DNA of 64,000 nt from Halichondria panicea (taxonomy: Eukaryota; Porifera; Demospongiae; Suberitida; Halichondriidae). The stretch spans positions 3,410,001 through 3,474,000 of the forward strand of contig NC_087381.1 of assembly GCF_963675165.1 (NCBI RefSeq), in the 5' to 3' direction. The notes beneath the pieces are model-generated. The model did no database searches. It worked only from the letters and a program-made list of their open reading frames with translations, and was not told where the DNA came from. A program made the translations under genes and the position numbers. Of this stretch, positions 13,248 to 64,000 are shown piece after piece; within the stretch, counting starts at the first letter, position 1; each line of letters begins with the position of its first letter.

Positions 13248-13756
13248 TTACATTACAGGTTGCATAGTTTCATAATGGTCTTCGTCATCTCCAGTTGCAT
13301 GTTGAAGAGTATCGTAATGGTCTTCATCATTTCCAGCTGCAGACAGCATAGTTTCATAATCTGGGGGTGTATCACAAGAACCATTTTTGATTGGTTCTTT
13401 CTTTATGCTTGACTCCATGAGTGTCGAGTATACACCATCATCCAGTGGTGGTTTTTCTATGCTGGATTCCGGCTCAAAATGGTGTAACGGTGCACCGTTA
13501 TACACTGGGTTGTCGTACATCATGTTTTCAGCATACGGTTGTGCAATTGGTAGACTTTTCTGATGGTGCTTTCTTTTTTTGTACCCCGAAGTGCTGGAGG
13601 ATTGTGAAATTACACAATTAGGAATTATAGAGTTGCAATGGTAATTGACTCACTAGCTTGCAATGATGATGATGGAACAGATCAGCAGGAGCAGACAAAC
13701 CACAAGGATGGTGTAGACTATAATCAACCAGTCACGAGGATTGTATACAAAACTTC
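13248..13756 (-). CDS. Transmembrane and cytoplasmic-tail exons of the giant CCP gene
   Basis: Exon 13756-13654 encodes a membrane-proximal SFVYNPRDW, a helix (LIIVYTILVVCLLLLICSII) and the start of the cytoplasmic side. Exon 13593-13248 begins with a stop-transfer cluster (YKKRKHHQK) and encodes 115 residues of tail. It contains YDNPVY (an NPxY motif, about 13500-13511), VYSTL, and three tyrosine repeats: YETM (13347-13358), YDTL (13305-13316) and YETM (13263-13274). Exactly ten residues separate successive repeats, and DEDHY precedes the last two. YxxM is the PI3K-p85 SH2 consensus. Paired YxxL/I with 6-12 spacing is the ITAM layout, so this is ITAM-like but with Met. Kinase or adaptor use is inference. 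Confidence 0.85.
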
Positions 13757-16700
13757 CTGCATTAATATTTAAGGATACATGTATAACAAGTATAATTATT
13801 ATATCAAGAGTAGATATCAGAAGAAGAATGTTGAACTACGATAGCTATACATAAAAACTGTTCACAAAGTAACGTGACATCTTTTCAATTCCAGGTGAGT
13901 AACTCGATGTTTGCGCAAGCTTGCACATTCTTTTGTGAAGAGTCAATGTCTCCAAGTACTATCAGTGTGCAGTGAGCAGCTCTGAACACTCAGAACACGA
14001 ACGACTATAGCTATAATAATCATGATGTCATGCCACACTCTAAAAACGTCACGATTAACATTATTATTATATAAGTTAATTGTGACGTTTTTTTAAGTAT
14101 ATAACGATACTATTATAGTATAATGTTATACGGTATATGTAGCATAATTATAACTCACTTATGCAAGTTGATTCAAATCCACTCCAACTGCCCACAGAGC
14201 TAGAATAGTTTCCGAAACAAGTTCGAACATAAAAATCCTCATCAGAAATATTCAACCGATAGCCCCCTTTACAGGTGTAGGTAGCATTGGTGCCTAGTTC
14301 ATGTGGGGCTGTTTGATCAGTGGTGAAGTTGACGAATCCAAACACAGGAGCCGTCAGATTAGGACACATTATGGCTGCATGGATTCAGATGATCTTAATT
14401 AATGAAAATATTACAACTTGGGAAGGCTAGTAAATGTTAAGTTTATTTCCTCACATAATTAATAGTATGGCTAAGAGTGCAATATATACCCTTATTGCAC
14501 GAGTAGCCATATACTATTGATTGTTAATCGTTTGTGATGCAGTTTTAAGAACATTTTTAGCTGCAGTTTCAGTAAAAAAAATTTAGCCGCGGCCGTTATT
14601 CGAACGTGCGGTCGTCAAGGCAGTAATTGCACGTCGTTAATGACGACGTGCAATTACTGATACGCGATTAATCACTGTACGAATCACAGTGAATAATAGG
14701 GCATGATACGAAATTCCTGCATAAGTTCTATATTTATATAATTATTCTGATTATACGAGGAGGATATACTGAGTGTATGGTGCATATAATTATATCCTCA
14801 GAGTATATAGGTGCATGTGGATTATACCACATGACTGCAGCACTGTGACTATATAATTATATATAAAAAGTCCTCCACACAACAATCCAATGCTGCAAAA
14901 AGAGCAATGCTAATGATGTCAGGATTTTACAGCCGTTAAGGAGCAAGTTGAGCAACATGTTGTCTCCTACAATGCTCATGCAAGAGCTTCTTTGGTCTAA
15001 GTGTTGTGCATTTGATGTCCCTTGCTGCAGATACAAGTTCTTCTTAGGGCAAAAACGTACATGCATGACCACCGCGCCGCACCCATTTACATATACATAA
15101 TTAGCCTATAGCCGTTATAGAAATAGTTTCAAACACTCACATTATTTAACAGAAGTTCTGCTATAGGCTAGTGGACATAGTTCTCACCTTCACAAGCAGG
15201 GGCAGCTCCAGCCCACTCGGCAGTAAAATTCCCCCCACAAACTCGAACTGGGTCCCCTCCTGTTAGTCCTAGTCCAACTTCACAGCTGTAGGTGGCATTG
15301 GTGAGGTAACTGAACGAAGAAGTAGCATCGGAGGATAAAACAACCGAGCCGTTGGTAGGAGCAGGCAGACTTGAACAGAAAATAGCTGTGGAGATCATTG
15401 GTTGTATTAGTGCATGAATATGAGGAGTACATAAATTATGAGGAGTACACATAGTCCTCAGTTTTTGACAGTACATGCATGCATGCATGTATATTCTCGG
15501 CAATTCATTTAATACATTTGCCTTAAACGTATTAGGATTATGGTTACAGTTTTTCACACAACTTGCACGCATGCATGCCATATGAAAACTATCAGACGTA
15601 CCAGCACACACAGGATAAGAGCCATTCCAGTCACCTATCACACCAGTCGAGTTGTCGCTGCAATACTGCATCGTTTCTCCAATTAAATAGAACCCATCGT
15701 TGCAGTAATGAGTGGCCACTGTTCCGTAGTCATATGGCTCTGTTGTGTCTGGACTGTACAGCGTTAAGACATTCTCAATTTGACCCAGGGACATGCAGTA
15801 GATAGCTGTGAACAATGAGAAAAGATTGATGTATATGAAAGAATACATACACAGATGATAGTTTAACGTCAAGATATCGACCTTGAAACTCTGATAGGCA
15901 TGCACTTATCACTTATAATTATGGTCAGCTGCTACGTATATCTGTAAATGCATATACATTCATATACATTGACACCAATCAAGGCATGCAATGTACATGT
16001 ATATATGTACATTACTCACGAGAGCAGACAGGGTCTGTGCCTTCCCACTGTCCATTATCACTGCCTCCATTCTCACGACACACTCTCCTCCCAACACCCT
16101 CTCGAAAAAATCCCTCACGGCAAGAGTAGGTCGCCATAGTGCCATAGACAAACGAGGAGGTGCTGTTAGCATTGTACTCAATATCTCCATTCATGATTTC
16201 AGCAAGAGCAAAGCATTGAATCACTGCAAGGAAATCATCTAATTTGTGTACACTATAGAACTCTTGGAAATAAGCCCTTAATTGCATGCATGGCTTAATA
16301 ACTGACAAAACAAACTAACATGTGCAGACAGGATTAGGGCCAGTCCAGTATCCAATGGGACTAGTGTTATCACCATCACACGTTCTTGTTGGCTCCCCTC
16401 CGATCAGTGCAAAACCAGTATCACAGGTGTAGGTGACCTCGGTACCGAATGCATACGGCATGGTCCGGTTGAAAGAGAAAGCAATACTACCATTCTCAAG
16501 AGTAGGAGGAGAGTCACACATATGGCCTGAATTATGAGTATGATTACAGTAGGTTGTATATAGGATGGATAGTGCTATTGTGTGTGTTTTCAATTATAAA
16601 GGAAGCAACGATGCAGCTTCCTTAGTGAACGTACGTATACAGTTATATATAATTATAGGCTTGCATGCGCAATACTTTGATCATGGACTTTAGACTATAC

Positions 16701-19700
16701 CGTATAGCGGGTAATTTTCTGGGGCAAAATATTCGTGGTTGAGCAATATAGTCAGTTCGTGGATCTTATTTTGTGGTTGCTGCTTTTACTGCAGGTAAAG
16801 GTAGTCAAGGTCGCTTCATTCGTGGGTAAAGTCTTTGTGATCCAGTGTTCAACCCACAAAAATCACGAATATTTTGCCCCCCCCGGAAATTACCAGCTAT
16901 AAATAGCATTTCATATAATTATTATGCAAATAACTATTCTCACTGTCGCAAATTGGAGCAGTTCCACTCCATTCTCCAGGCCCTTGACTAGAGCCGACGC
17001 AAGTCCTCACTCTGTCCCCACCCAGGAGTCCGTAACCAGAATCACAGCTGTATGTCACAGTTGTTTCGTATTCAAAGGAAGTTGTCGTGAGGGTATTGTA
17101 TGTGATTGATCCATTGGAGGGAGCAGTAACATAGGAGCAAGTAATTGCTGTAGAGAATTTCAGACAGGACATATAATAATAAACGACACAGATGTATGGT
17201 GAGACACAAATTATACATCTTAAGCAATAATACTATTATTATGCTGAGTGCAATGTGGTACCCGACCACATGCATACATGCTAGTCTCATGGATCAACCG
17301 GACCTGAAGGACCGTCTGAGCACTCTTGATGTATAGTTTTGTTGCACACGCTGGAATTCCAGCGGCTCAATCAGATTGACTTATTCTAGTCAGGTGATAT
17401 TATAGGAGGCAGAACTGCACGTTGCTCAACGCATTTGGATAATCATTAACGCATGCATTACGCATGGTAAACGCTTCATACATAGACGCTGCTACGAAGC
17501 ATAAGCAAGCCAAGCAGGGGTCCTTGGGCACAGAGTTAGCACCACAGGCAAAAGACATACATGTAATAGATTGAAGCACCTTCTTCAGAGAGAGAGAGAG
17601 ATGCCTGCGCTTGACGCTTTGTACAATTAACAAATACGCGGGGGCGTAAGGTCAGGAATTGATTACATTCCATTGGTCTGGCACATTCCATTGTGAAATG
17701 ACCTCAAGACAAGAGTGCTCAGACCCCTTCTTAGGAGGGGGCTGATCCATGAGACTACATACATGCATGCATACAAACTATATACATGTCAAGTATAACA
17801 ATATTTGTCCTCCCTCACCTAGGCAGTCAGATTCAGTCCCATTCCACAGTCCACTATCAAGTGTGTACCCCTCTCCACCACATGTCCTGACTCTATTACC
17901 CACCAGATAATACCCGTCATCACAATAGTACATGGCCACAGTGCTAAACTCAAATGGAAACGCTTCAGCATCAGGGGAATAGCCTAATGATCCATTTCCG
18001 ACTGAGAGCCGATTGCAATAAATACCTATACAAGTGGAGATACGATGACATGCAGTTGATGGTATAGCTTTATTCGCATTAAATGTACCGAGTAAGCTCA
18101 AGTTTGCGATTAAGTACAACCGTGGTAGCCCCATCTCATGTATCAATTAATGGTGAGTGTATTTTCGCACGTATCAGTGAATATACTCATTGTATAATGC
18201 ATGGCAAGTCACTTGGCATTATGAGTTGGCTAAGCAGAAAAATAGGCATTTAGTCACCGAATTTTCAAAATTATATGTATGCATGATAGCTACTGACTTA
18301 GTATCGAAATGCATATAAGCACACGATACCTTCACAAGTTGGAGCAGTTCCACTCCATTCTCCAGGTCCTTCTGTTGAGCCAATACATGTCCTCACTCTG
18401 TTTCCACTGGACAATCTGAATCCCACTTCACAGCTGTAGGTGGCATTGGCCTGATAACTGAATGGAGGGAGTGTGAAGACTGAGGAGAAGGTGATGAAGG
18501 CGTCCAAAGGAGCAGACAATTCTTCATCACATTCAATTACTGCGGTGGAGAGGATATTATAGGAAAATAATAATACTGAATACCGTATATGCTTGATCAG
18601 GAGCCGCGGCTACTAAATGTTTCATTTTGCTGGAAGAGGAGGCTACAATTCAAGAGGGGCCACTGTTCAAGAGCGGCTTTTATTAGCTCCAGCTAATTTA
18701 GTTTGTCATCAAAAGTTGTTTTCACCTGCATAAACTTGAACTCTGCCATGAGAAAGTCTTTGTGAAGCACTAACAAGCTGCTACTCATAGCTACGTACAT
18801 GTAGCTAGCTGTGCTGCTAGTAATAATTTTTTTGGCTGCCACGTGCAGAAATGCTAGAGTCAAAGTTCACTGAGGCTACTATTTGAGAGCGGCTACTAAA
18901 TGTTTCATTTTGTTAGCAAGGGAGGCTACTATTTGAGTGCGGCCTTTATACAAGAGCGGCCTCTGATCGAGCATATACGGTATACTCACTTACAGTGGTT
19001 ACGATTAGGAAAAAACTAGAACAGCAGTTAAAATAAAAGCCAATACGTTTGTAACAACATCATAAGTAGACTATTGTGTGACAATCCATGCACCAACGGT
19101 TTCAAACAGTTGAGGCTCATACATACCTTCACAAGAGGCTTGAGTTCCATCCCACACTCCAGCTGGTGATGAGCCATCCCCACTGCAGCTCCTAGTCATG
19201 TTACCTCTCAGGAAGAAACCTTCTTGACAGCTGTGGGTGACCGTGGTGCCATATGCAAATGGCTCTATGGTGTTCGGATCGTAGACTGTTGCTCCATTGG
19301 TCAGGGCCGTGATAATGGAGCATGTGATAGCTGCAAATTGGGGAAAAAATGGTACTTATAAAGTCACAGAGTCAGGTGTATGAACAGAAAACTTCCAACT
19401 TTGAAGTCTTACGCATGCACCATGTACCAATCAGAAGAGGTACTCACATATGCAAGTTGGGTTATCCCCAGTCCACATTCCAATTGGACTGGAATCATCA
19501 CCAGTACATGTCCTGGTCCCATTCCCATTTAAAGAGAATCCAAGGTCACAGATGTATGTGGCGATAGTGCCAAAATCAAACGGAGAGATGGCATTGCTTG
19601 TGAAGACAATTTGTCCATTCGTGAACATTGGAGGATCAGAACAAATGTGATCTAAAGAAGTTATTTCAGCATTAAATCTAGAACCTGAACTAAAAGATGC

Positions 19701-22700
19701 ATACATGCATGCATGCACACTCACCATCACAAACTGGAGCTGTTCCGTTCCACTCCCCACCACCATCACCGGACTGCACACAGCTCCTCGTAGTATCCCC
19801 TCCAAGCAGTCCATATCCAATGTTGCAGCCATAGGTGGCCGTGCTGAGGTAGGGTAATGGTGTAGAAGCGCCAACAGAGAAGGTAATGATTCCATTGGTA
19901 GGAGGAGGCAGGTTAGAACAGGCAATTGCTGCGGAATTAAATACAATGTTGTATTTACACAGATGGTATACACAGATGATAGCATGATATTTATATGCAA
20001 AATGAAAATAATACAATAATAAATTTGCATGATTGCCATCGGGTGAAATTGACAAGAGTTTTAAATTTAGCCACTTGGCAAATTCAAGTAGAATTGGTTA
20101 CCACAATAAGTTTTCATTGTCATCCTCACCTTCACAAGTCGGAGGTGTTCCAGTCCAATTTGCTCTAGGGCTTGATTCATCACCCAAACACAATCTCGTC
20201 TCATTGCCATCAACCGGTTCAAACCCTGGCTCACAAGAGTAAGTGGCTTTTCTAACTAACTCCACAAGAGACACTCTCATCAGGGAGAATGATATCCGAC
20301 CATTGTCAATAGAGAGGTCAGGGCAGACATAAGCTGTACGGTTAGAATGCAAATCAGTTCCAACGGGCAAAAACAAAGGCTTAAGCAGATAGTTCATAAA
20401 AAGGTGAATCTTAGCATCAATTTTAAATGATTGAGACACAAACCTTCACAAGATGGAGTAGTTCCATTCCATACTGGGCCTGTACTAGAACCAACACATG
20501 TCCTGAATCTATTCCCACCAAAGCGTCCAAAACCAGGATTGCACCGATAACTGGCCACACTGAGATAAGGGTATGGATCACTAGAGCTGGAGATGTACTC
20601 AATGTATCCGCTGGTTGGTTTTTGCAGACTTTGACAGACAATTTCTGCCAGAGAAAATGCAAAGTTAATGTATAAGCTCGTCATGCTGGTAGGATAATTA
20701 TGCCATAAAACTCGTCCTCAGGGATCACTGGTAGACCAACCAACTGAACTACAGTGAAACATGCATAGAGTCTGTTGATTTGGCTGCATTTAAGAGGGTA
20801 TAACGCACGACTGTAATAAATAGGGTAACCACAACGGACAGGTTTCGCTCTTATCAGTACACCACTTGACTCTTATACATACGTATCTACCTGTGCATAT
20901 CGGTGTCTCGCCATTCCAGTTCCCAATGGTGCTCAATCCATCCCCAGAGCAGCTTCTTACTTGGTTACCCTCCAGAAAGTAGCCTTCTTCACAAACATGA
21001 GAAGCTCTAGAGTTGAACTCAAACGGATCAGTCATGTCTGGACTGTAGTCAATCTGTCCACTCTCGAGCGGAGGCAGCATTAGGCAGAAGATTTCTGTAT
21101 AGAACAAAGTGCACGATGTAATAGTGCGTGATGTAATATGTACACTCAATAGCTGGCTACCATAATTATAACCAGTTAATGCAAGGAATTCGGTAAAGAT
21201 TGCAACCAGTATACAGGGCAATGTAGGGGCAATGATGCATGCACCAGCCATTTGAATCTTGGCAAAGTTAGCCTTATAACTGTATAGTACAATGTGAACG
21301 TCCTATATAAACAGTGTGTTCTTTTTACCTCCACACATTGCATTGGCCCCGGTCCATGTTCCATTGGGAGTTGAACCATCACCACCACAAGTTCTGATTA
21401 TAGTCCCTTCACTAATACCAAATCCGACATCACAGAAGTAGGTAGCAGAAGTTTGATATTCATAGAATAGGCTCACAGCAGTTGAGTAAACAATTCTTCC
21501 ATTGTCGGGAGTAGAGAGACCAGGACATGTAAGAGCTGTATACAATTCAATTGCATTATTAATAATTACGATTGGCCAGTGAGAAAAAACTTTTTGCCGT
21601 ACTTTGGAAGGGAATATATGACCACATTATTTTTATCAGTAACAAAAACTACTTACCTTCACAAATTGGAGCAGTTCCGCTCCATTCTCCAGGACCTGAG
21701 CTAGAGCCTACACAACTTCTTAGTAGATCACCCCCCAAAAGTCCGAAACCACCATCACAGGAGTAGGTGGCAGAGGTTTGGTAGTCAAAGGGAGCAATAG
21801 TGTCAGTGGTGTAAGTGATGACTCCATTATAGGGATCAGTCAAATCAGAACATACGATTTCTACAGTAAGAAGATAAGAACACACTCACGTGCTTAAACA
21901 AATTAATAAATGTATTGTCAAACACTAGCCAAGCTTACCTATACAAATTGGAGCAGTCGTATCCCATGTACCAAATATACTGGTTCCGCTCTCACTACAC
22001 ATGCGAGTATCGTTCCCATAGAGATAAAACCCATTATTGCAGGAATGGGTGGCAATTGTGCCAAACATTAGAGTGGACGTGGCAACACTACTGTAGACGA
22101 TGACTCCATCATCCATCTCATCCAGAATGGGGCAAGTAACAACTGTAATTTAAAAAGTATAGAGGAGTATAGATATATTAGAGTATTTAGAGTGCATGCT
22201 ATTTGGCATGACCTGCATAAATTAACGAGTATTGTCGTTGAATGGTTCTCAACCACACCTATATATCACATTGGTGCATAAATTGTACGGTCCATGTAAT
22301 AATTTGTTTAATTCACAGTTAGAGCAACAGTGCATGGCTTTACGCTTGAAGCTAATAGCTACCTTCTTACAGACACGGTTGTGGCAAGGGTGAAATTATA
22401 TACTGAGTATCAAGAGCTCTCAGCTTAAATGAACAATTTCGATACATAGCTACGTATATGGACATAAATTGACTGACCATCACACATTGGAGATCGCCCA
22501 CTCCACACTCCGTTGGGACTTGAGTCATCACCATCACATAATTGAGTAGCCTCCTCCCCAATCAGTCCAAATCCAGTATTACAAACATAGGTGGCCACAG
22601 TGCCGAAGTCAAATGGTGAGGTGATGTCAGTAGAGTAAATGATTACCCCATTGTCCGGAGCAGGGAGACTAGTGCACATAAGAGCTGGAAAAAATGTATC

Positions 22701-43700: not shown

Positions 43701-46700
43701 AAATGGGAGCAATTCCTCTCCATTCTCCAGGACCTAAACTGGAGCCAATACAATTTCTCACTCTGTCTCCACCAGAGAGTTCAAAGCCAGCATCACAACC
43801 GTAGGTGGCAGTGGTTTGATAGTCAAAAGGAGATGTTGTGTCAGATACGTATGTTATGAACCCATTAGTTGGTACAGTCAAGCTTGTACAAGTGATATCT
43901 GAAATAGATGATTTTTGCTATTTACATATATACGCAACTTGAAATGTGATAGGTATACATACCTAGACAGCTTGGCTCGTTTCTATCCCAGACCCCAACA
44001 CTAGTTGCCCCGTCACTGGTGCAGTTTCTGATAGCAGATCCTTGGAGATAGTAACCATTGTTACAAGAGTGGAATGCTTGTGTTTCGAAAACTAGGGAGG
44101 TCGCTAGAGCAGGATACTGGAATGTAATCACTCCGTTGGTTAGTTCAGAGAGATCAGGGCATACAATATCTAAAGTAGAGAACATCGATGTTATTATTTA
44201 TTGGAAATAGGACATAGCACAAAACATAAACAGGATATAGCACAAATCATGCCAAATATTAGTTTGGACTAAGAAAATTAACTGCATTGAGGTAACTTTG
44301 CATGTGGTAATTATTTTTCGAAATGGAAAGCTGTTTACACAAACTCACAGTCGCAGGTTGGAGAGACTCCATTCCACACTCCCACAATGGTCAATCTATC
44401 TCCATCCACACAAGTTCTAGTACTTGATCCAGTAAGCCCATACCCAAAGTTGATATTGCAAGAGTAAGTGGCCACAGTCCCAACATCATATGGTTCAATC
44501 GTGTCCGGAGAGTAGGAAACTTTTCCAAAATTATCCGGAGAAGTTAGTGCATCACAAACAATACCTGCGCAAATAACCAATCTGGAATTAAATCCATGCA
44601 TATATAGAATCTTTGTGCTGAAACAAAATTCCCGTCAACCGTTTGACAGAATTTATAAGCTTATATTCTAACCTTCACAAGTTGGAGCACTTCCACTCCA
44701 TTCTCCAGGACCTGCACTTGAGCTGACACATGTTCTCACTCTATCTCCACCAAACAGTCCATAGCCATTGTTACAAGAGTACGTGACAGTGGTTTGGTAG
44801 TTAAAGGGAGCTGTAGTGTCACCTTGGTAGCCAATCTGGCCATTGCTCGGACTTGACAAACTCGGACAAGTCACAGCTGCACAGTGAGGGAGTTAAAAAT
44901 TAGAGAGTCAAATTAATGTACAAATGTATAATTATACACTATAGCTGTATGTTTGAGGTTCATCAACAATTTGTCAAAAGGACTTAATTGAGTTTGGATG
45001 TACGTAGCTCTTTAGAAGCGGACTGCTAAATAAATGCAGTCTCCCTAGAACTTACTTCCACAGAAAGGTATGCTTCCACTCCATAGACCACTGTTAGTGA
45101 ATCCATTAGTACTAAGCCCATCTCCCAAGCAGGTCCTAGTCATGCCACCAATCAGATAATAACCTTCGTTGCAGGTGTACATTGCCACACTGTTATAATC
45201 ATATGGTGAAGTGGCATCCGGAGAAATGGATATAAGCACATTGCTGATAAGGAGATCAGTCTGGGTGCACTGAATGGCTGTGAAATGAATTAGTACCAAT
45301 TTTATGTAGTGCCACTTGGTATGAAGTGTTCTCTAATTAAGTAAGTGAGACTATGAGAGGATAAGTAATTTTAACGCATCATACGTAGCATAAGAACACT
45401 CACGTGAGCAAGTTAACTGAGCACCGACCCACTCTCCATTGAGACTCTGAGCATCACTCTGACAGATGGCCGACACTGGTACTACTCCACTGACTGGGAA
45501 CCCATAGCCAATGTCACATGTGTATTCAGCTATAGTGCCCAGCTCATAGGGAGGGGAGTCAGATTCTAATGTGACGTAACGAATGGCACCATTGGTCGGC
45601 TCAGGCAGGGGAGAGCACATTAGAGCTGAAATAAGAATGAAGAATTCTTGATTTGCTATAATTGACACATATATGCCCCAGTATAGACATTTTCTTATCT
45701 GATAGACTTTACTGTGCACAGTAATTTTTTTATGATGGCAGTTGCAGAGGTGTTATAGTGGGAACACAAGCAACCAGTAGAAATACCTTCACAAATCGGA
45801 GCAGCTCCACTCCATTCTCCAGGACCAGCATTTGACCCAACACAATTTCTAATAGTGTTTCCAACAGCAGACAGTCTAAAACCATTGTCACAGCTATAGG
45901 TGGCAGTAGTTTGGTAGTCAAACGGAGCAGTGGTGTCAGTGGTGTAGGTGATGACTCCATTAGAGGGATCAGTCAATCTTGAACAAGTGATGTCTGCATA
46001 GAAAATAATGAAGTGAGATTTGAGAAAGCTTACAAGAACAAACAATAATACTCTTTGCACATTCACGTATACTATATAATTATACATGCAGAAAGCTTGC
46101 AACATCATTGCTAGAAGAGTAGTTTTGGTTCCATACCTGAACAGCGTGGATCGGTTCCATCCCAGTTCCCAACAATACTGGCCTCACTCCCACCACACGA
46201 TCTCATCATGTTACCCTCAAGAAAGAATCCAGTGTTACATGTGTATACAGCAGCTGTTCCAAAGTCAAACGGAGCAGTGATGTCAGGACTGTAACTGATC
46301 ATTCCATTATCGATCGAATTAAGAGCTATGCAAGTGATGGCTGAGGGAAAAGAACAACCAAAACTCAATACATTTGAAGTAAAACTATGCATGGTTCCAA
46401 CTTACAATTGCAGACTGGGGCAGTTCCACTCCACACCCCACGGATGCTGGAGTCATCTCCCCCACAAGTCCTGGCCGGGTGTCCTCCAGTGAGCCCAAAC
46501 CCAGCATTACAGGTGTAAGTGGCCACAGTATTGTAGTCATGAGGAGAGGTAGTGTCGGTAGTGAAGAATATTCCACCATTTTGTGGGGCAGGGAGACTGG
46601 TACATGTCAGTGCTGTACGAATGCGACACAGTCATACCTCCTCAATATAAAAAGAATTCACTCGAGCATAGCAAACTATAATTTATAGTGAGGTGGAAGT

Positions 46701-49700
46701 TTCCAACAACTAATCAAACAAGAATCAAACATGGGTATATTCCACATAACAGACGGAAGGAAATATTAGCTACCATCAACGAAAAGGACAACTACAGAAC
46801 TACCAAAATATATTTTTAGCAAACATGCATATAATTATAAGTTATAACTGGATGTTGAAGGAACTTTGAACACAAAGTAAATGTGAAGTATAGGGCCTTA
46901 CAGAAGAGAACTATATACTTCCACCTCGTACTTTAATACATAATACACCTCAGGATAATTGTTTACCTTCACATGTTGGACCAGATCCACTCCATTCCCC
47001 GGGACCTGAGCTAGAGCTGCCACATGTTCTCAGCCTGACTCCATCAGACAGTCCAAAGCCAGTATGACAACTATAGCTAGCAGTAGTTCGGAAATTAAAG
47101 GGAGGACAGGTGGAGTAACTTATGACCCCGTTACCAGGAGTCACTAACGTAGAGCATGTAACAGCTGCATGTAGTATAAGAATTAAAGTTTGTAGTAAAA
47201 TAAGTGTGTTATATATTGCTACTTAGATCCCACCTGGGAGTATTTAGGGAGTTACAGTTCCCGGTAGTTATTAGATAATATTGCTCGGCAATGAAAATTG
47301 GGATCTAGATCTAGATCATGTGCATTCAGTATCTACATAGTGTCACTCAGCCCTCGGGATTTGGGTATTATAAACATAATTATAGATACCTCATGCCTTA
47401 TGATGTAACTATTACATGATGGGAAACAACCTATACCTATTTCCAACTCAACAACAAAAAACTCCCCATTTGACCCAAGATGTTTTCCATGTGACACAAA
47501 TTGATACCCATGCGCCACACATTAGCAGCTATAGCCAATTACGGTATAATAAAAATACTGCTCCCCGACCGGGAATCGAACCCGGGTCTTCCGCATGACA
47601 GGCGGAGATACTCACCACTATATTATCGAGGACTGCACACAAACATATTTAAAAGAGCTGGATTCGTCTCACGGTGTGCATGCAAATCGGAAGTTCCCTT
47701 GATATCCCCACAGAATATGAAAACCATTGCTTTTACTCACCTACGCAGCTGGGATCCCTATCACTCCATACTCCTACTGTACTCAGTCCATTGCCACCGC
47801 ATGATCGTGCATCATTGCCTTGCAAGTAGTACCCAGTATCACAAGAGTATTGAGCCACAGTGTTGTAGTCATAGTTAGGTACTTGGTCAGGTCCATAGGT
47901 GATGATACCATTAGGAATAACGAGAATATTGGCACACTGGATAGCTACAAGTGAACAGGAATTAACGTATCATTTATCTATACTATGCACCCGATACTAT
48001 ATCGCTCATCTATCTCATCTATTTCATCTAAAAAATGTAATTACCACCTAAAGATTATTTTTCGATACAGAGAAAATTATACTTACGTTCACAAATTGGC
48101 GAAGTTCCACTCCACTCTCCCAGTCGATTAGATCCACCACAATTTCTTTGTCGATTTCCACTGGACAGCCCAAACCCTGGATCACACACATAAGTGGCTG
48201 TGGTACCAAAGTCAAATGGAACCAAAGTGTCAAGTGAGTAGGTGATGATTCCGTTTGCAGGAGAAGTTAAACTAGAGCATTCAATTGCTGCATGGACAAA
48301 AGTTACACATGCTGTATTATGAAGACTAGAGTTACACAATAAGTATAGTCAGCATCTTATAGGTAACAGAGCAACAGAGAGGATTGTGCAAGTACATAGA
48401 AACATGAACACTGCATGGTGTACCCGTGAATAAAATATTGTAACTATAATTATAATGGCCCCAACAAGGAAACTCAACACATGAATGTCATTCTACACAT
48501 GGTATAGGACATTCATTGCCATTCATTTGAAGTCAACAGCTTAAAAGAAACAACAGCTTAAAACTACTCTATATATAGCAGTATTATGATCAGTCATTTG
48601 AACAGACAACACTTATGAGATGTATAAGCTCACGCGCACTCATACTTACCTTCACAACTTGGATTGCTTCCAGTCCACGTTCCAGTTATGGTTAACCCAT
48701 TCCCAGTGCATGTTCTGGTTCCACTTCCAACCAAGTAGTAGCCATCCAGACACACGAATGATGCCACTGTGCTATGTACAAACTCACCAGAGGAGTCATA
48801 CGACAGTTCACTGTTGCTCACGTCAGCCAGAGCAGGACAAATGATCACTGTAAAGTAGGAAGTAGGAATTGCATGGTCAAATATTGGATACAAGCGAACT
48901 TCACAATAATTATATGCATAATCTTCTCAGGTAGAACCTATAGTAGTATGGAGATATCTATAAATCATTCAGCACCATTAACATGAACCAAGTATACTAT
49001 CCGAATGAGTGATGAAGTTATATCTCTTACCATTACAAGCTGGGGCAACTCCAGACCAGAATCCACCCCCAAGAGGAGAAAGCATACACGTCCTGACTCT
49101 ATCTCCACCACTCAGACCAAACCCATTGTTACAGCGGTATGTGGCAATAGTCTCAAAGTCAAACGGTGCAGAAGTATCAGCTGCGTAACTGATGTCCCCA
49201 TTGGTGAGAGCAGTCAAACTGGAGCAGGTTACAGCTGTAGACATTGTAAGCATTAATATTAGGAAATGCATGACCGTTTGCATCAGTTTTAGTAAGGCTG
49301 TCATTACGGCGTAGTAGTGTAGCTAGAGCACGCACGTATGCACATTGGAGCCAATCCTCTCCAAGTTCCCGATACACTGGAACCTTCACACACTCTACTA
49401 GAGTCTCCCTGGAGGTAGAATCCCGGATTGCAAGAGTATGTGGCAGTAGTACCATATGGGTATGGGACCGTTCCTTGATTGTACGATATGGCACCATCGG
49501 CTATTGAGCTTAGGGTAGAGCAGGTGATTGCTGTATAAAGAAGTACAATCTCACCGCTTAAAACAAGGCTGTACATCATACTTCAATTGTGATTGACTAT
49601 CGTTCTTACCCACACAGGTGACATCACTACCACTCCAGATTCCAGCTGAGAGGCTGTCATCTCCTTCACAAGTCCTCACCATGTTACCTACCAGAGCATA

Positions 49701-52700
49701 TCCAGTATTGCAGTTGTAAGTGGCAGTGGTTCCATGTAAGAACGGAGCAGTAGTGCCAGTGTCGTATGTGATGATACCATTAGCAGGATCAGACAGACCA
49801 GAGCACAGGAGAGCTGGAGAGAATACAATATCTACTGTGAATTTGTGCCATAGATTACTGATAAGGTACTAGTGGAGTGCTGCATGTCTAATAGTCACAC
49901 AACTGTGATTTACCTCATAATTTATTTAACTCATAGAAGAGAACCTATCACAACACAACATGCCAGATAAATCATCGTTATAAGAGTAACAGCAATATAC
50001 AACCAAGCAAGAGTGAGATACTTACGTAGGCAAGTTGGTTCCGGTCCGGTCCACTCTCCACTTCCTGAACTAGAGCCAACACAAGTCCTTGATCGGTCTC
50101 CTACTACACGATAACCAATGTCACACATATAGTTGGCCATGGTCAGATATCCAAAGCCACTGCCAGTGTAGCTAATACCACCATTAGCCAGTGGTGGTAG
50201 GGAGGGGCACATGATAGCTGTGAAGAAAAAACTAATTGTCATAATTTGTGCTGGATCAGACGTATGTATACCATTCCATTTTACATACACTATACAGCCC
50301 TACGGTGGCTTTATGCAAAACTGACAGTGAGAAATGTGATGCACACCTGAGCAAGCTGCCTGTGATCCACTCCAAGCACCCACAATATCGATCCCATTTC
50401 CCTGACACACCCTCTCACTATTGCCCTCCAGGAAGAAACCTTCATTGCACGTGATGGTGGCAGTGGTACCATGATCCAAGGAGCTAGCGAGGCCAGTACT
50501 GTATGTGATGTCTCCATTGGCAACAGAAGGAAGTTGAGTGCAGAACACAGCTGGAGGAAGTATATAATGCAATATGTCAAACTAACACATCTGTCAGATG
50601 ATGACTATGAATGTAATCTTGAAGCAGTGAATTTGAATGATAATCTCATTCTTGCAAAGGTCACTTAGACAAATGGTCTCCAATGTAGACCACCAATTTT
50701 ATTTTCTAGATATTGCTGTTAAGCTTACAACCAATTGAAATCAAGGGTTTTCACGTATGCTCTTAGAATAATTATAAGAGAAGCTGGAGGAAGTACAATG
50801 CAACATGTCAAACTAACACATCTGTCAGAGAGGATGACTATGAATTCAATTGATATGAATACAATCTTGAAGCATAATGAATGATAGTCTCATTCTTACA
50901 AAGGTCACTCAGACAAAATTAATTATGGTCTCCAATGTAGACCACCAATTCTTTTCTAGATTGCTGTTAAGCTTACAACTAGACACATCGATTGAAATCA
51001 AGGGTTCACGTATGCTCTTAAAATAATTATGGAAAGAACTAGACTATTGTGTAATAGGATGTTTTCAGTGTTTCATTAAAGTACCACAGCAACTACTTAC
51101 TAGCACACTCAGGATCTGTATTTGTACCACTCCACTGGCCACTGATGACTGCTGAGTTTACGCAACTCCTCGTAGTAGCTCCATTTCTCAATCCGAAGCC
51201 ATCGTTGCATCTATAACTTGCAATGGTCTCAAAATTAAAAGGGGGTGTGGTGTCAGGCGAGTAGATGATGAGCCCATTGGTCGGGATCGTCAGTGGGTCA
51301 CACATCACAGCTAAACCGAATATACACTTCAGTGATAACAATTATTTATAGTGACTCATCAGACAATCTAATTGAGTTACCAGCAGCTACATAATTATGT
51401 GATCACTTAATGCTGTGACATGCTTAAAGCTTTAAGTTACTATCCATTCCAGGACCTTGCCCAAATAGTACTAAACTTTCCTATCGTAAGCACTAAAATA
51501 ATTATGACTCACGGAGGCAATTAGCAGGATTGCCATTCCAGAAACCAGCCACAGTGTTTCCATTTCCCAGACACTGCCTGGTCCGTGCTCCATCTCTGTA
51601 CCAGCCCACATTGCATAGGTAGGTGACCACTGTAAAGTAGTCATGAGGTGGGAAGTTATCGGGGAAGAAAGAGAGGCCTCCATTTAAGGGTGGGTCTAGA
51701 CGGTCACACTGGATCACTGAGGGAGTAAATACCATTATCGTAGTTATAATTATCGGATACGTAGTAATCCAAATGAAGACACTATAATTATAGTTAGCAT
51801 GAATCCTATGGAGATCTAATAGCAAAGAATTGGTATAATCCATTAAGAAATCTGTCGGCAAAGTGTATAATAGAGATTATTTGGTTGTCGCAGAGATTAC
51901 CAAACTGTATAGCGAGTTATTTTCATATGGTGGAAATTTTCGTATATTTCGTATCGAAAAGCATCATACGAAAATTAAAACTATGAAATTATTCTACCGC
52001 AATAGATTCAACGTCATTATCCTGAGCTGTACGAATATTTAAATGGGTATATAGAAATTACCTGCTCTACGGTACATGAATACTTACCATCACAAGAAAT
52101 GGCAGGTGTACTCCAGACTCCAGTGGTGCTGGATCCGTCTCCTTCACAAGTCCTCGTAGTTCCTCCATTGAGACCAAACCCGGAATCACAATTGAATGTG
52201 GCCACTATACCATACCTATATGGGGAGTCACTTGAGTAGGAGATGCGTCCGTTAGAAGGGTCAGTTAGTGGAGGGCAGTTCAGAACTGAATGGAATGAAA
52301 GTTGAATTGTTTACAATACAGGATACAGTTTTCTCATAAGTTCTTTCTACACTATTTTATGACACCCCAAAACTATTGAAAAGTATACAGATGAAATACT
52401 TTGTGCACAGCAGAAATTTTAATGGGCTTGGCTGGACTAGCAACATATCAGAGCTTAAATTATATTGGACTCAAGCACCTTTAGCTGCATGCAAGATAAT
52501 TGAGGTGTACGTATATAAACACGCATCTGTGAAACTACATAATTATTTGGTTATCGTTGTTCTTACCTTCACAATCTGGAGCAACTCCATTCCACTCCCC
52601 AGGACCTGTGCTAGAGCCGACACATGTTCTCACTGTGTTCCCTCCTGACAGTCCATAAGCGGTATTACAACCATAGGTGGCAGTGGTGAGGTAGTCATAT

Positions 52701-54914
52701 GGAGCAATGGTGTCGATAGCAAATGTGATAAATCCATTAGTTGGTGCATTGAGCTGCTCACAGGTGATTGCTATGAGAAAAAAAAACATCAATGTGAGTA
52801 GCATCCTATCTTTTTCAGATGGATTAATTACACTGGTGAATTTGAAAGCTTGTATAAATCTAGAGTGTCTTTGATTACTATTTAGGTGCATGCAATTTGC
52901 AAAACGATGAGAAAAGTTATAAACTAGGGTTGACAGAAATTCAATCACCTGGGCAAGAGGGAGGTGACCCGTTCCAATCCTCAATGAGCGGATTCCCACC
53001 ACATACTTGAGCAAAGAAGAGGCCTTGCAAGTAAAACCCATTATTGCATGTGTAAGTGGCAATGGTACCAAATGCAAATGGATCGGTATTGTCGGGACTG
53101 TAAGTGACCACTCCATTGCTGATTGAGCTCAAGGATGAGCACATGATAGCTGTTATGTGAGAGTGAATGTTGACAGACATAATTCACACAACGGGAAATT
53201 GCAATTATAAATTTAATTTGGCATAATAATAGAGCATAAGTATTACTAGAATGTTTTGGAGCATCAAACATTTGAAATTTGTGATGGTTGAACAATTCGC
53301 AACAATAAAATCCGCAAAACCTAAATTATTACTAGTAAATACACACGATTCTTGCCAGAACGCAATAGTTAGGGTCAACATTTCTACTTATTTGGCTCAT
53401 TTGCAAAGGTTTTCACCTGCAAAATATTCTAGTAATACGGTAACTGGTTTCTCATTTTGAGCCCTATACACAAAGAGCTGATTCTGTGTGAATATAATTA
53501 TAAATACCTCTGCATATAGTCCCCATCACATTAGTATCCCAGGATGCATCCTGGCCATTTTCTGTGGCAGTACATCTGGCTGAATTTGACGGTCCATCAA
53601 TTATATAGCCAGTATTACAAACTAGTGTTGCTACTGTGCCCACGGTGAAGGAAGAAGTGGAGCTGTAACCCCATAACCCGTCTGACGGGTTGACCAACAA
53701 GTCACATGTGAGAGCTGTATGGGGAGTGAAGTCAATTCGATTATGCAGTGACTATATAGTTTACACTAGCCAACTACAATCATGTAAGTCAGGAGTGCAT
53801 AGAAATTGAATAGAAAAAAGCTTTTGAGGCAGCCAATGTACGTATTGTAAATCTCAAGTCAATTTTAGTCCTAATGAATATTATTGTACCTTCACAAGTT
53901 GGAGCAGAACCACTCCAGAACCCTGGCCCGATATTTGACTTCTCACATAATCTGACGGTGGTGCCACCTAATAATCGGTGAGTACCAAAGTTACATATGT
54001 ACGTTGCCGTGGAATTGAAGTCATGAGGGGTGTTGGAGTCAGAATAGTCAATCAATCCGTTTAACAGGACAGGAAGATCATCACAGGTTACTCCTACAGA
54101 AGAAATCGAGCCACATGACAAGAGAGATCTTTAAATGCAAGTGAAAAGAAAACTCTGTATTACCGGCACAATACTAGCTTTGTACCTAAAATGTACGTAA
54201 CTTACTCAGACAAGTTGATAAACTACCATCCCAGTTTCCATTCACAGACGACCCATGTCCTCCGCAGTGACGAATGAATTGACCCACTAAGTAGTAGCCA
54301 CGCATACAGATATGGATCACTGCAGTGCCAAAGTCATGAGGAGGGGTAAAATCAGGGACGTAGACAAAGAGTGTGTTGTCCGTGGGCACTAGGGCCTGGC
54401 AGATGATAACTAGAAGAGAAAGATACAAGTGTACAGTTAATAATATAAAAGCCACTACAGGCCCCTTGAATGTCTAAGATCTAGACCTATACCATCGTTT
54501 GATTACCATTGCATTCTGGAGCAGTACCACTCCATGTGGTCCCATCACACACTCTTATTTGATCTCCACCATCTATACCATTCCCAGCTGTGCAGATGTA
54601 GGTGGCCACAGCTCCCAGCTGGTTGGTGCCCCCAGGGTAGAAGATACTTCCATCAGAAGGTCTAGAAAGAGTTGGGCACTGACCTGGAGGGAGTGTCAAG
54701 AAATTTGTCATTATAATTTTGCATCTCTCAACAAAGGGGGGTGGGGCTGCTCTTGTTCTAGCAGTGCAGCATTTGTTTGTCTTCCCAGCCAAAGGTGAGG
54801 TCTCAGATTTTGAGCAGTTAATAGAGACCAGATCTTACCATTGACAAAATTGGTTGTCACTGTGCAACTTGTCCATAACAGCATTAGGAGCAGCTTGCAT
54901 ATTGTTGATTTCAT
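13248..54914 (-). CDS. Giant cell-surface receptor: signal peptide, 100 CCP/Sushi, TM, Tyr-motif tail
   Basis: I can follow 103 exons on the minus strand: signal-peptide exon 54914-54839, 100 Sushi/CCP exons (listed in the ten block entries), transmembrane exon 13756-13654 and tail exon 13593-13248. All CCP exons are phase 1-1 and multiples of three in length, so the frame stays open for 20,991 nt (about 6,996 aa, roughly 770 kDa before glycosylation). Each CCP has the expected four Cys, a Trp before Cys4 and the N-G-x-I start. CCPs are beta-sandwich modules of complement regulators, selectins and adhesion proteins. There is one leader exon and one TM exon on this strand and no internal stop, which favours a single gene. 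Alternative splicing or a split into several genes cannot be excluded without RNA. The first 25 residues (MKSTICKLLLMLLWT...) are nearly the same as the leader of the divergent gene at 55632. Confidence 0.75.
14041..14095. repeat. Short inverted repeat with TGACGT cores
   Basis: TAAAAACGTCACGATTAAC is mirrored by GTTAATTGTGACGTTTTTTTA around an AT-rich loop. It lies in the intron before the TM exon. It is probably a small hairpin element; each arm contains a CRE-like TGACGT core, whose relevance is unknown. Confidence 0.6.
14159..19330 (-). CDS. CCP exons 92-100 (membrane-proximal)
   Basis: Exons: CCP92 19127-19330, 93 18330-18539, 94 17819-18025, 95 16944-17147, 96 16320-16526, 97 16020-16223, 98 15602-15805, 99 15188-15385, 100 14159-14374. 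In this part the three-class order is broken (B-A-B-A-C-B-B-A). CCP100 is the most divergent: its Cys2-Cys3 loop is long and its last codon is completed by the TM exon. Introns here are longer than average and carry hairpins and MITEs (14621, 16698, 17282, 18580). Confidence 0.88.
14621..14659. repeat. 17-bp-arm hairpin, dispersed repeat
   Basis: CAGTAATTGCACGTCGT and its exact inverse surround a 5-nt loop. A nearby CCGCGGCCGTTA also occurs inverted at 9752-9845 beside GTAATTGCACGCTGTCAATG, so both belong to one dispersed repeat family. Located in the intron between CCP99 and CCP100. Confidence 0.65.
16698..16905. mobile_element. Palindromic MITE copy (ACCGTATAGCGGG family)
   Basis: Starts TACCGTATAGCGGGTAATTT and ends with the degenerate inverse ...AAATTACCAGCTAT, with TATTCGTG/CACGAATA inside. 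It lies in the intron between CCP95 and CCP96. More decayed than the copy at 5418. Confidence 0.65.
17282..17757. mobile_element. 476-bp MITE with 9-bp target duplication
   Basis: Terminal inverted repeats of about 48 bp begin TAGTCTCATGGATCA and share GTCTGAGCACTCTTG further in. Identical 9-mers CATACATGC flank both ends (17273-17281 and 17758-17766). A 9-bp duplication with long inverted repeats again suggests a Mutator-like origin, though CATG-rich flanks weaken the duplication call. No coding capacity. Located between CCP94 and CCP95. Confidence 0.75.
18580..18984. mobile_element. MITE with ATACCGTATATGCTYGATCAG termini
   Basis: The left end is ATACCGTATATGCTTGATCA and the right end is the inverse, ...GATCGAGCATATACGGTAT. 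The interior repeats GAGCGGCTACTAAATG and GAGGCTACTATTTGAG words in both arms. Located in the intron between CCP92 and CCP93. Confidence 0.7.
19448..23019 (-). CDS. CCP exons 82-91
   Basis: Exons: CCP82 22816-23019, 83 22478-22684, 84 21939-22142, 85 21657-21860, 86 21329-21535, 87 20891-21094, 88 20444-20644, 89 20130-20333, 90 19725-19928, 91 19448-19651. Domains 82-87 are two clean A-C-B triplets; 88-91 run A-C-A-C with no B class. CCP85 has the consensus class A ending (GPGEWSGTAPICEG). CCP83 uses a GTCAGT donor. Confidence 0.9.
23188..26981 (-). CDS. CCP exons 72-81
   Basis: Exons: CCP72 26778-26981, 73 26431-26643, 74 25803-26006, 75 25543-25749, 76 25129-25332, 77 24806-25009, 78 24318-24524, 79 23889-24092, 80 23581-23787, 81 23188-23391. 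CCP78, 79 and 80 are three consecutive class C domains. CCP73 has a three-residue insertion (LLGNANYDTRWC) before Cys3. The 424-bp intron between CCP73 and CCP74 holds a palindromic MITE and a second dispersed repeat (about 26300-26365) that also occurs near 39120-39190. Confidence 0.9.
26065..26220. mobile_element. Decayed palindromic MITE copy
   Basis: Ends in ...AAAATTACCCGCTATA and shares GCAATAGATTCAACGTCA and AGCTGTACGAATATTTAAA with the copy at 51905-52073, so both descend from one subfamily of the ACCGTATAGCGGG element. The left terminus is degraded. Confidence 0.55.
27171..30704 (-). CDS. CCP exons 62-71
   Basis: Exons: CCP62 30498-30704, 63 30243-30449, 64 29655-29858, 65 29364-29567, 66 29008-29214, 67 28608-28802, 68 28219-28422, 69 27940-28143, 70 27550-27747, 71 27171-27380. 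The order A-C-B is perfect through the block. CCP68 is a consensus class A domain (GGDRMRTCVGSSSGPGEWSG). CCP62 has an extra residue in the Cys2-Cys3 loop (FRLSTVGSNVR), like CCP21 and the + strand domain at 59467. CCP67 and CCP70 are shorter class B domains. Confidence 0.9.
29961..30232. mobile_element. Small MITE with TTTACACGA termini
   Basis: GCGCCGTTTACACGAGGACTAATCC at the left is mirrored by GGATTAAAGGCTTCGTGTAAATGGAGC at the right, about 20 of 27 positions matching. No clean target duplication and no coding capacity. Located in the intron between CCP63 and CCP64; its right end lies 10 bp from the CCP63 donor. Confidence 0.55.
30857..34102 (-). CDS. CCP exons 52-61
   Basis: Exons: CCP52 33899-34102, 53 33560-33769, 54 33284-33487, 55 32951-33154, 56 32587-32784, 57 32260-32466, 58 31931-32134, 59 31541-31741, 60 31263-31466, 61 30857-31060. 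The triplet order holds except that the class C domain is missing between CCP54 (A) and CCP55 (B). CCP56 is a shortened class A domain with the loop GVAPMGFMRTCGTIGEW. CCP57, 60 and 66 are close class C copies sharing SDLPAPDNGRI. Confidence 0.9.
34153..37414 (-). CDS. CCP exons 44-51
   Basis: Exons: CCP44 37208-37414, 45 36894-37103, 46 36569-36757, 47 36181-36378, 48 35870-36073, 49 35493-35708, 50 35240-35446, 51 34153-34356. CCP48-51 are a four-exon duplicate of CCP24-27. CCP49 has the insertion FGYGLTGSSTR also seen in CCP25, and CCP50 shares FQYPALA and DGATSVGVWDRNEPSCLG with CCP26. CCP46 is the shortest internal domain (63 aa). The intron between CCP50 and CCP51 (883 bp) carries a hairpin and a transposon remnant. 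Confidence 0.9.
34443..34575. repeat. Hairpin with 41-bp arms
   Basis: TTAGACACTGTTTAGGAAGT... (34443-34483) is mirrored at 34535-34575 with one mismatch. The 51-bp interior contains partly complementary GGGCGTTCTG/GGTTCTACTAGCCC segments. It lies in the CCP50-CCP51 intron directly before a Crypton-like remnant and is probably part of the same insertion. Confidence 0.85.
34623..35001 (+). pseudogene. Crypton-like (DUF3504/QRICH1-type) N-terminal remnant
   Basis: An open frame starts MNAQTMDSEPSPVPNAF and includes a short tandem repeat of the SNQPHLxIC type. After a possible acceptor (CTCCACAG at about 34885), a second frame reads ASENLLTAPVAKKARKF and FAPPKSSKEVEQARKETIPK. The last segment resembles the N-terminal start of Crypton-derived tyrosine-recombinase-like proteins abundant in marine invertebrates (family recall, not searched). 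The catalytic part is absent and the frame degenerates into AT-rich DNA. The orientation is opposite to the host gene. Imperfect 24-bp tandem repeats (GATTTTCTATTGAAGTACAT) follow at about 35086-35131. Confidence 0.35.
37570..40775 (-). CDS. CCP exons 36-43
   Basis: Exons: CCP36 40572-40775, 37 40180-40386, 38 39812-40015, 39 39452-39661, 40 38527-38730, 41 38193-38402, 42 37874-38077, 43 37570-37776. The A-C-B order is perfect. CCP36 is a divergent class A domain (LNGGEWVGGRYTCER). CCP39 has a two-residue insertion in the last loop (VFSRTSSIGGDW). CCP42 is a consensus class A domain. Confidence 0.9.
38731..39451. other. Long intron between CCP39 and CCP40
   Basis: No exon or RNA gene was seen in these 721 bp. 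About 39120-39190 is a dispersed repeat shared with 26300-26365 (ACGTCA, then GTAGTAGCCA and ACACCAAATTAAAAAA). The rest is unremarkable AT-rich DNA. Confidence 0.5.
40958..44876 (-). CDS. CCP exons 24-35
   Basis: Exons: CCP24 44673-44876, 25 44349-44564, 26 43963-44169, 27 43695-43898, 28 43445-43645, 29 43102-43296, 30 42793-42993, 31 42298-42501, 32 41959-42168, 33 41572-41778, 34 41301-41519, 35 40958-41164. Four perfect A-C-B triplets. CCP34 is long (73 aa) with a Pro-rich FPPFELGT and LTPSGVDPIRLC loop, closely like CCP22 twelve domains earlier. CCP24-27 are the duplicate of CCP48-51. Confidence 0.92.
45056..47944 (-). CDS. CCP exons 17-23
   Basis: Exons: CCP17 47741-47944, 18 46967-47164, 19 46406-46612, 20 46137-46340, 21 45787-45993, 22 45404-45625, 23 45056-45277. 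The uninterrupted A-C-B series begins at CCP18. CCP22 and CCP23 are the longest domains (74 aa). CCP19-21 are near-copies of the + strand domains at 58619, 59161 and 59467. CCP20 and CCP21 each differ from theirs by about three residues. The CCP17-18 intron holds the tRNA-Asp gene. Confidence 0.92.
47561..47632 (-). tRNA. tRNA-Asp (anticodon GTC)
   Basis: The 72-nt minus-strand sequence folds as a canonical cloverleaf. The acceptor is TCCTCGA/TCGGGGA (one G-T pair) with discriminator G. The anticodon arm is TCCGC-CTGTCAT-GCGGA with anticodon GTC at 47597-47599. The T arm is CCCGG-GTTCGAT-style with B-box GGTTCGATTCC, and the A-box is TATAGTGGTGAG. No intron and no encoded CCA, as expected for a eukaryotic nuclear gene. 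It lies in the CCP17-CCP18 intron on the same strand as the host gene. A short T-run terminator was not obvious directly downstream. Confidence 0.96.
48087..54683 (-). CDS. CCP exons 1-16 (N-terminal)
   Basis: Exons: CCP1 54507-54683, 2 54206-54409, 3 53890-54093, 4 53508-53714, 5 52949-53149, 6 52567-52770, 7 52088-52285, 8 51513-51716, 9 51101-51310, 10 50347-50550, 11 50026-50217, 12 49610-49813, 13 49336-49530, 14 49031-49234, 15 48650-48847, 16 48087-48287. CCP1 is short (59 aa, GQCPTLSRPSDG) and matches the first domain of the divergent gene. Domains 8-14 also have counterparts there. The three-class order is only partly kept here. CCP4 is unusual, with VTCDL-like start ALTCDLLVNPSDG and a 14-residue Cys3-Trp spacing (TATENGQDASW). 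CCP9 and CCP13 use donors after ECA and CI. Confidence 0.9.
50551..51035. repeat. Intronic tandem duplication, about 235 bp x 2
   Basis: Two copies (50551-50782 and 50783-51030) share CTGGAGGAAGTA, GTCAAACTAACACATCTGTC and TGGTCTCCAATGTAGACCAC in order. The copies differ by several indels. The unit includes the first bases after the CCP10 acceptor, so an acceptor-like CTGGAGG is repeated. It explains the long intron between CCP9 and CCP10. Confidence 0.8.
51905..52073. mobile_element. Decayed palindromic MITE copy
   Basis: The left end AAACTGTATAGCGAGTTATT and right end AAATTACCTGCTCTACGGTA are degenerate versions of the ACCGTATAGCGGG terminus. The interior matches the copy at 26065-26220. 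Located in the intron between CCP7 and CCP8. Confidence 0.6.
54839..54914 (-). CDS. Signal-peptide exon of the giant CCP gene
   Basis: ATG at 54914 opens MKSTICKLLLMLLWTSCTVT and continues to a phase-1 donor (AATG/GTAAGA). The hydrophobic core LLLMLLW and small residues after it fit a cleavable signal peptide. The sequence around the start (TAGCCATGAAATC) is identical to that of the divergent gene at 55632, which supports the choice of start. Confidence 0.85.
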
Positions 54915-63319: not shown

Positions 63320-63390
63320 GTAAGAGTTTAATTAGGGTTTGGTTTTGCTGGCTTCTTATTGCAATTGCTCTGCTATTGATGAGTAACAAA

Positions 63391-63961: not shown

Positions 63962-64000
63962 TGGGGAACCGGCATGATGAATTTAATTCTCAGTACTGAG

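Follow-up and report, generated by a model that had tools for sequence, protein, structure and literature searches.

We recovered two divergently transcribed genes, M and P, from the sponge Halichondria panicea. They probably encode a pair of giant adhesion or recognition receptors that arose by inverted duplication. The window, which is the whole 64,000-nucleotide stretch of DNA that was analysed, contains gene M and the start of gene P. Each gene is predicted to encode one single-pass type I surface protein, in which a signal peptide precedes an acidic chain of CCP domains with almost no lysine; a single TM helix and a tail rich in tyrosine follow. The exons and frames, the domain identity, the twin, the purifying selection, and the relatives in the genome are read from the sequence. 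The single transcript, rod shape, signalling, and ligand are inferred parts of this explanation; there are no RNA, protein, or binding data. If made as predicted, M and P would be exceptionally long receptors of the CCP type. Bare coordinates are window positions, and coordinates with a C label are positions on contigs of the 131.5-Mb genome.

Table 1. Features of genes M and P and of related CCP genes
Feature	Position	Strand	Details
Gene M leader exon	54839..54914	-	76 nt, end phase 1; MKSTICKLLLMLLWTSCTVTTNFVN
Gene M 100 CCP/Sushi exons	14159..54683	-	Profile hits, exon table, Pfam Sushi
Gene M TM exon	13654..13756	-	103 nt; best 19-aa hydropathy 3.2; WLIIVYTILVVCLLLLICSIIIIA
Gene M cytoplasmic tail exon with stop codon	13248..13593	-	DNPVY, VYSTL, DYETM, HYDTL, HYETM
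Hinge between start codons	54915..55631		717 bp
Gene P leader exon	55632..55704	+	MKSPTFKLLLIVLWTCTVNTNHVN
Gene P CCP exons 1-15 of 97	55933..64000	+	Remainder continues to C5:3509692
Gene P CCP exon 12 (P12)	61542..61700	+	Truncated mid-domain, 2/4 Cys, second half lost
Gene P TM exon	C5:3509825-3509936	+	Beyond window
Gene P tail exon	C5:3510496-3510934	+	Beyond window
EGF-like (by eye) + 14-CCP gene	C5:3545274-3551452	+	CCPs of same long type; ~34 kb beyond twin
C3 array 1: SRCR + 59 CCP + FN3-like + TM + NPxY-tail gene	C3:6398001-6428000	-	
Second C3 gene: 21 CCPs, many SRCR motif ORFs	C3:6458001-6478000	-	

Structure of genes M and P

Gene M (54914-13248, minus strand) contains 103 exons: one for the leader, 100 for CCP (Sushi) domains, and one each for the TM segment and the tail. 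Its frame begins with an ATG at 54914, runs for 6,996 aa without a break, and closes with a stop codon whose last base is 13248. This matches a sequence-only reading of the window, which had proposed a product of about 7,000 residues from 103 exons at these coordinates. That reading had also placed one leader at the start and the TM segment and tail together in one exon at the end. The leader stands; the TM segment and tail are two exons separated by a 60-bp phase-2 intron. This is the only one of the 102 introns that is not in phase 1, so the proposal that every exon is in phase holds for the CCP exons and not for the TM/tail junction. The CCP-to-CCP introns have a median length of 161 bp (range, 46-883 bp).

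The frame depends on the splice sites chosen. The final model has no internal stop, as had been claimed, whereas a model with the simplest choice of splice sites meets a stop codon where CCP41 joins CCP42, 2,819 aa into the chain. That stop results from a CCP42 acceptor set six bases too far in, and an upstream CAG is used instead. The frame was opened by moving 5 of the 100 exon ends (CCPs 3, 9, 40, 42, and 52) with phase unchanged. The moved ends were judged against the nearest-site picks, and the new sites are better sites. The splicing of gene M is a prediction without RNA evidence.

A CCP profile, seeded from regular-expression hits within the window, was searched over six frames; on the minus strand from 54683 to 14159, exactly 100 hits scored above 30 bits. 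When the two-gene locus was dinucleotide-shuffled, none of the five trials yielded a profile hit that exceeded 12 bits. All 100 exons have a GT donor, are 177-222 nt long, are divisible by 3, are phase 1-1, and lack a stop, in line with the earlier reading. The first-pass acceptors carry a pyrimidine (C or T) at -3 in 99 of 100 cases. Pfam Sushi (PF00084) matched all 100 exons at E <= 0.01, with a weak additional cEGF match in two. Exactly four Cys are present in 99 of the CCPs, and CCP18 contains five. Trp and three Cys are invariant columns, and the fourth Cys is present in >= 90%. The exons thus belong to the CCP/Sushi domain, a module of ~60 aa with four Cys and a conserved Trp.

The fold of CCP51 was predicted with AlphaFold (AF2) as a single CCP, using 64 others as the alignment, and had a mean pLDDT of 94.9. 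The best Foldseek matches of this model were CCPs of DAF, CD46, and CR2. The best E value was 1.5e-3, and there was no match at E <= 0.001. The TM-score over the query was 0.67-0.84 among the 50 matches listed, where CR1 stood lower down.

The mean similarity score between M CCPs was 140, 139, and 137 at lags 3, 6, and 9, versus 115 at lag 1 and 119 at lag 2. At lags up to 12, none of 5,000 permutations matched this three-CCP period in M, and none did in P. Over all lags, one or more of 2,000 permutations exceeded the observed value in both genes. In our opinion, the all-lag test is weaker because single-CCP insertions shift the phase. Judging by these repeats, the arrays appear to have grown largely by three-CCP units, with single-CCP changes later. 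Average-linkage clustering of the CCPs into types gave no useful classes.

Gene P has its own leader, TM exon, and tail around 97 CCP exons, one of them truncated. Its 6,793-aa model reads through the truncated exon, P12, which is a decayed or skippable copy. Exactly four Cys are present in 95 of the 97 exons. The hinge between the genes is likely a shared promoter region, which is an inference; the longest inverted match inside it is 13 bp. When the 131.5-Mb genome was searched with the M tail peptide, the only other locus found was the P tail (C5, 3510.5 kb). A search with the M leader DNA matched only the P leader, on the plus strand and with 82% identity. Based on sequence and hydropathy alone, gene M and its twin meet the layout of a type I single-pass receptor. 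Such a receptor has an N-terminal leader, one TM segment near the C terminus, a basic stop-transfer, and a cytoplasmic tail; the leader, TM segment, and tail were checked in both twins.

The P tail contains the motifs DNPLY, DNPTY, NNPTY, VYSTP, HYETI, and HYETM. The NPxY and YxxΦ tyrosines are kept in both twins, and the M tail matched no Pfam family at E <= 0.1. NPxY is a PTB/endocytosis motif and YxxM/L is an SH2 motif. The last YxxΦ pair (HYDTL..HYETM in M and HYETI..HYETM in P) has 10 residues between its two members, and its second hydrophobic residue is Met. The ITAM consensus is YxxL/I-x6-12-YxxL/I. The spacing of the pair is ITAM-like, and Met stands where the consensus has Leu or Ile.

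The CCP exons contain 9 Lys codons among 6,722, versus 151.5 expected from positional base composition. Lys makes up 0.13% of the gene M ectodomain and Arg 2.98%; the M tail has 8 Lys in 114 residues. The Lys content of CCPs in other arrays is 1.38% on C9, 6.28% on C2, and 0.06% in two C3 arrays taken together. The computed ectodomain pI is 4.05 for both M and P and is thus acidic. This value is believed to be the floor of the program, and the true pI may be lower. An ectodomain with so little lysine offers a specific clue from chemistry.

Collinearity and selection between the twins

The twins share 84 reciprocal best CCP pairs, 3 of which break the order, and dynamic programming gave 85 collinear pairs. 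In M, 15 of the 100 CCPs have no partner: 7 lie at the hinge end, 7 at the TM end, and 1 inside. In P, this is true of 12 of the 97 CCPs, 11 of which are at the hinge end and 1 inside. Given the unpaired CCPs, the order breaks, and the broken P12, the number 100 itself is not conserved.

The 85 concatenated pairs had a dS of 0.151 and a dN of 0.053, with a ratio of 0.35. By stretch, dS was 0.64 in M CCPs 1-14 near the hinge (7 pairs), 0.20 in CCPs 15-24 (9 pairs), 0.083 in the middle (CCPs 25-60; 36 pairs), 0.126 in CCPs 61-84 (24 pairs), and 0.19 at the TM end (CCPs 85-100; 9 pairs). The dN/dS ratio was 0.26-0.39 in these five stretches. Purifying selection acts on the twins and is similar along the array. 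Intron identity was 0.845 over 80 matched introns and 0.898 in the middle. In the simplest reading, the array was duplicated in inverted orientation and gene conversion then acted on its interior; the gene conversion is inferred solely from the dS and intron profile. One long array would have grown largely by copying three-CCP units before it was duplicated, and the interior would have been homogenised later. The mirror pair is a natural experiment in which both ends and the tails change and the middle does not.

The giant form is in frame in two largely collinear copies, and its great length therefore looks maintained by selection; the exact CCP number, unlike the length, is not. It is also possible that each locus makes mostly shorter products, through block skipping or internal starts or termination, and that the 100-CCP chain is rare or absent. 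Because 101 of the 102 M introns are in phase 1 and the CCP exons are all phase 1-1, any CCP could be skipped without loss of frame. The broken P12 requires either skipping or read-through at a weak donor, and P introns reach 2,088 bp. In contrast, all 100 M exons are in frame and nearly all keep exactly four Cys, dN/dS differs little from stretch to stretch, and TM-like ORFs are not shared between orthologous introns. We consider mostly shorter products unlikely, with a real chance of being right, and prefer the full-length chain.

Related CCP genes and possible function

The Pfam search of the genome scored the best 150 of 4,112 candidates, and a search with CCP22 scored the best 150 of 834. 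Since only the best candidates were scored, genome-wide array counts are lower bounds and other 100-CCP arrays are not excluded. A 70-kb region on C9 contained 111 CCP hits and a 30-kb region on C2 contained 59, in shorter runs with gaps of 0.9 to 10.9 kb. In C9:5620000-5682500, a block of CCP arrays on the minus strand is followed by one on the plus strand, a further pair in this orientation, with ~10.7 kb between the two. At C15:3860755-3869688, Pfam Sushi hits are spaced regularly, ~1,100 bp apart, which points to a tandem array of recent origin. A COX1 search of the genome found only a nuclear fragment of 192 bp that contains two TGA codons, and it did not separate genetic code tables 4 and 5.

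Two CCP genes on C3 were read as ORFs and not as spliced models. SRCR motifs lie upstream of both arrays. Pfam SRCR was found in all 4 ORFs tested beside the 59-CCP array; those beside the 21-CCP array are motif matches. The ORFs downstream appear FN3-like by eye, with Pfam fn3 in 1 of 4 tested and below the cut-off. ORFs for a TM segment and for a tail with NPxY lie beside array 1. The three-CCP period is absent from the C3 arrays, and the family as a whole therefore does not share the three-CCP unit. CCPs of array 1 are most alike at lag 7, which equals the repeat length of human CR1.

The mean best score to M CCPs was 205 for M itself, 194 for C3, 138 for the EGF-CCP gene on C5, 114 for C9, and 94 for C2. 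The C3 SRCR-CCP genes were thus the nearest of the four other CCP loci compared. This comparison favours the larger set (80 CCPs on C3 versus 14 on C5). Among the best 150 of 834 candidates, the best match of CCP22 outside the twins was the C5 EGF-CCP gene and not C3. No SRCR was detected in the twins: in tblastn searches of the whole M/P locus, 23 queries derived from C3 (18 SRCR and 5 FN3-like or TM ORFs) found nothing at E <= 0.01. The control on C3 gave 479 hit lines, not split by query type. Without a tree, the twins seem to form a branch with CCPs only within an SRCR-CCP receptor family. This gene style by itself suggests a sponge.

SRCR-CCP receptors have long been proposed to act in sponge cell recognition. 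Blumbach is said to have described a putative aggregation receptor of Geodia cydonium in 1998. In the available part of a review, that receptor is an SRCR/short consensus repeat protein on the cell membrane (PMC4557014). The twins resemble it in having CCP (SCR) repeats on a membrane receptor, and their nearest CCPs are in SRCR-CCP genes. They differ in their ~100 CCPs and in lacking a detectable SRCR, and thus fall outside the Geodia type, which combines SRCR domains with CCPs. Sponge transcriptomes contain many SRCR genes, some with Sushi repeats, and sponge Sushi genes respond to microbial signals, as far as the accessible portions of two reports go (PMC8242945, PMC6208332). The link between the giant pure-CCP receptors and the SRCR-CCP receptors would make the proposed recognition role testable with one gene pair.

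Human CR1 has 30 CCPs (PMC5845983) built of 7-CCP repeats (PMC6683126), both taken from partial texts. The twins resemble CR1 as predicted type I receptors made almost only of CCPs in long homologous repeats. They differ in that M has 100 CCPs in three-CCP units. The earlier proposal that M exceeds CR1 in CCP number is thus borne out, and the predicted count on one membrane chain is ~3x that of CR1. C4BP is a soluble multi-chain complex, in contrast to M, for which 100 CCPs are predicted on one membrane chain. It has the most CCPs, 59, in the range of 4 to 59 given for human RCA proteins in the part of the study available, which also describes a regulatory motif pattern in consecutive CCPs (PMC6683126).

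CSMD1-3 resemble M as large single-pass proteins with an uninterrupted Sushi array, as stated in the available text (PMC9778380). They differ in their alternating CUB and Sushi domains; CUB was matched by 0 of the 100 M exons (Pfam, exons only). The earlier reading had also proposed that M far exceeds the CSMD proteins in CCP number. According to the same partial source, Sushi domains lie between the 14 CUB domains of the CSMDs, which also have the uninterrupted array (PMC9778380). The literature searched, which was covered in part, does not mention a CCP array of this size.

A very long CCP chain would reach far from the cell and could bind ligand at several sites. Clustering of the receptors may lead kinases to phosphorylate the tail. 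The NPxY sites would then serve PTB proteins or endocytosis, and the YxxΦ sites would recruit SH2 proteins. Other cells and microbes are candidate ligands, as are an aggregation factor and an opsonin. Adhesion or recognition is favoured because of the SRCR-CCP relatives; confidence in the ligand class is low.

The twins might instead be complement receptors or regulators similar to CR1, with CCPs that bind a thioester-protein opsonin. The CCP51 model is nearest to DAF, CD46, and CR2, with CR1 lower among the matches listed, and the genome search found one TED_complement locus, in two pieces, on C13. However, CCPs are present in many non-complement proteins. A search for ANATO found nothing; the controls likewise gave no match, and the result is uninformative. 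A complement role is distinctly unlikely.

We also put forward, tentatively and as an improbable option, that the twins are a matched recognition pair of Lys-poor rods under one promoter, serving as a cell-cell or self/non-self reader. The ends would have diverged, the outer tip most, while gene conversion kept the interior alike. With 3.5-4 nm per CCP, rods of ~100 CCPs would perhaps measure 0.3-0.4 micrometre when fully stretched. The near absence of Lys would prevent covalent fixing by lysyl oxidase or thioester proteins. Lysyl-oxidase matches were found on C4, and together with the TED_complement locus they make an escape from amine-directed fixing possible, which is speculation. If true, a reader of this type is undescribed in the literature searched, which was available in part. 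The wider reading as adhesion or recognition receptors remains the preferred one.

Gene boundaries, assembly, and neighbouring genes

Each array appears to be one gene, with strong genomic support and no transcript data. The collinear twin with its own leader, TM exon, and tail makes a pile-up of several genes unlikely. Introns were scanned with criteria that recover 4 of 4 real leader and TM exons of the twins. Leader-like ORFs were present in 10 of 99 M introns (shuffles, 11.4 +- 3.2) and 14 of 96 P introns (13.5 +- 3.7). TM-like ORFs were present in 4 of 99 M introns, slightly more than in shuffles (1.8 +- 1.2), and in 2 of 96 P introns (2.2 +- 1.3). The scan found no TM-like ORF common to matching M and P introns. 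One pair of leader-like ORFs lies in matching introns (after M99/P96), and the peptides are unrelated. No convincing second leader or TM exon was thus found inside M, in line with the single leader of the sequence-only reading.

Two or more neighbouring genes read as one array are very unlikely on this evidence. Genes on the same strand can sit close, as the next minus-strand start, at 13081, is ~170 bp past the M stop, and some introns do hold leader-like or TM-like ORFs. Four introns, after M9, M39, M63, and M99, are long in both twins (384-813 bp in M), and a hidden gene boundary would fit best there. Other long introns are long in only one twin (883 versus 107 bp; 189 versus 2,088 bp), and each twin has just one recognisable leader and one such tail. 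Separate genes were rejected, since the leader-like ORFs are at shuffle level, the TM-like ORFs are at that level or slightly above it, and none is convincingly common to the twins.

Head-to-head mirror copies are a known shape of assembly artefact, and a hairpin or haplotype fold-back, or expanded tandem repeats, is barely credible here and was rejected on the basis of the divergent arms (dS 0.64 near the hinge) and of flanks (13.2 and 12.0 kb compared) that are unmirrored except for scattered matches of <=210 bp, with unequal CCP numbers, no N in the stretch, and a best within-array match of <=82% identity for every M CCP also against it.

The minus-strand region from 13081 to ~11476, ~170 bp past the M stop, appears to contain a gene for a small single-pass protein, with a leader, an S/T/P-rich stalk, and a hydrophobic ORF. 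Two of its ORFs were scanned, and no Pfam family was above the cut-off. Two similar genes lie on the plus strand at 1883-4037 and 8488-9593, each encoding a NIDO (nidogen-like) domain that is spread across ORFs. Four ORFs were scanned for NIDO with Pfam, with one at the cut-off, two above it, and one below it. Both genes contain Ser/Thr/Pro-rich repeats after the NIDO domain.
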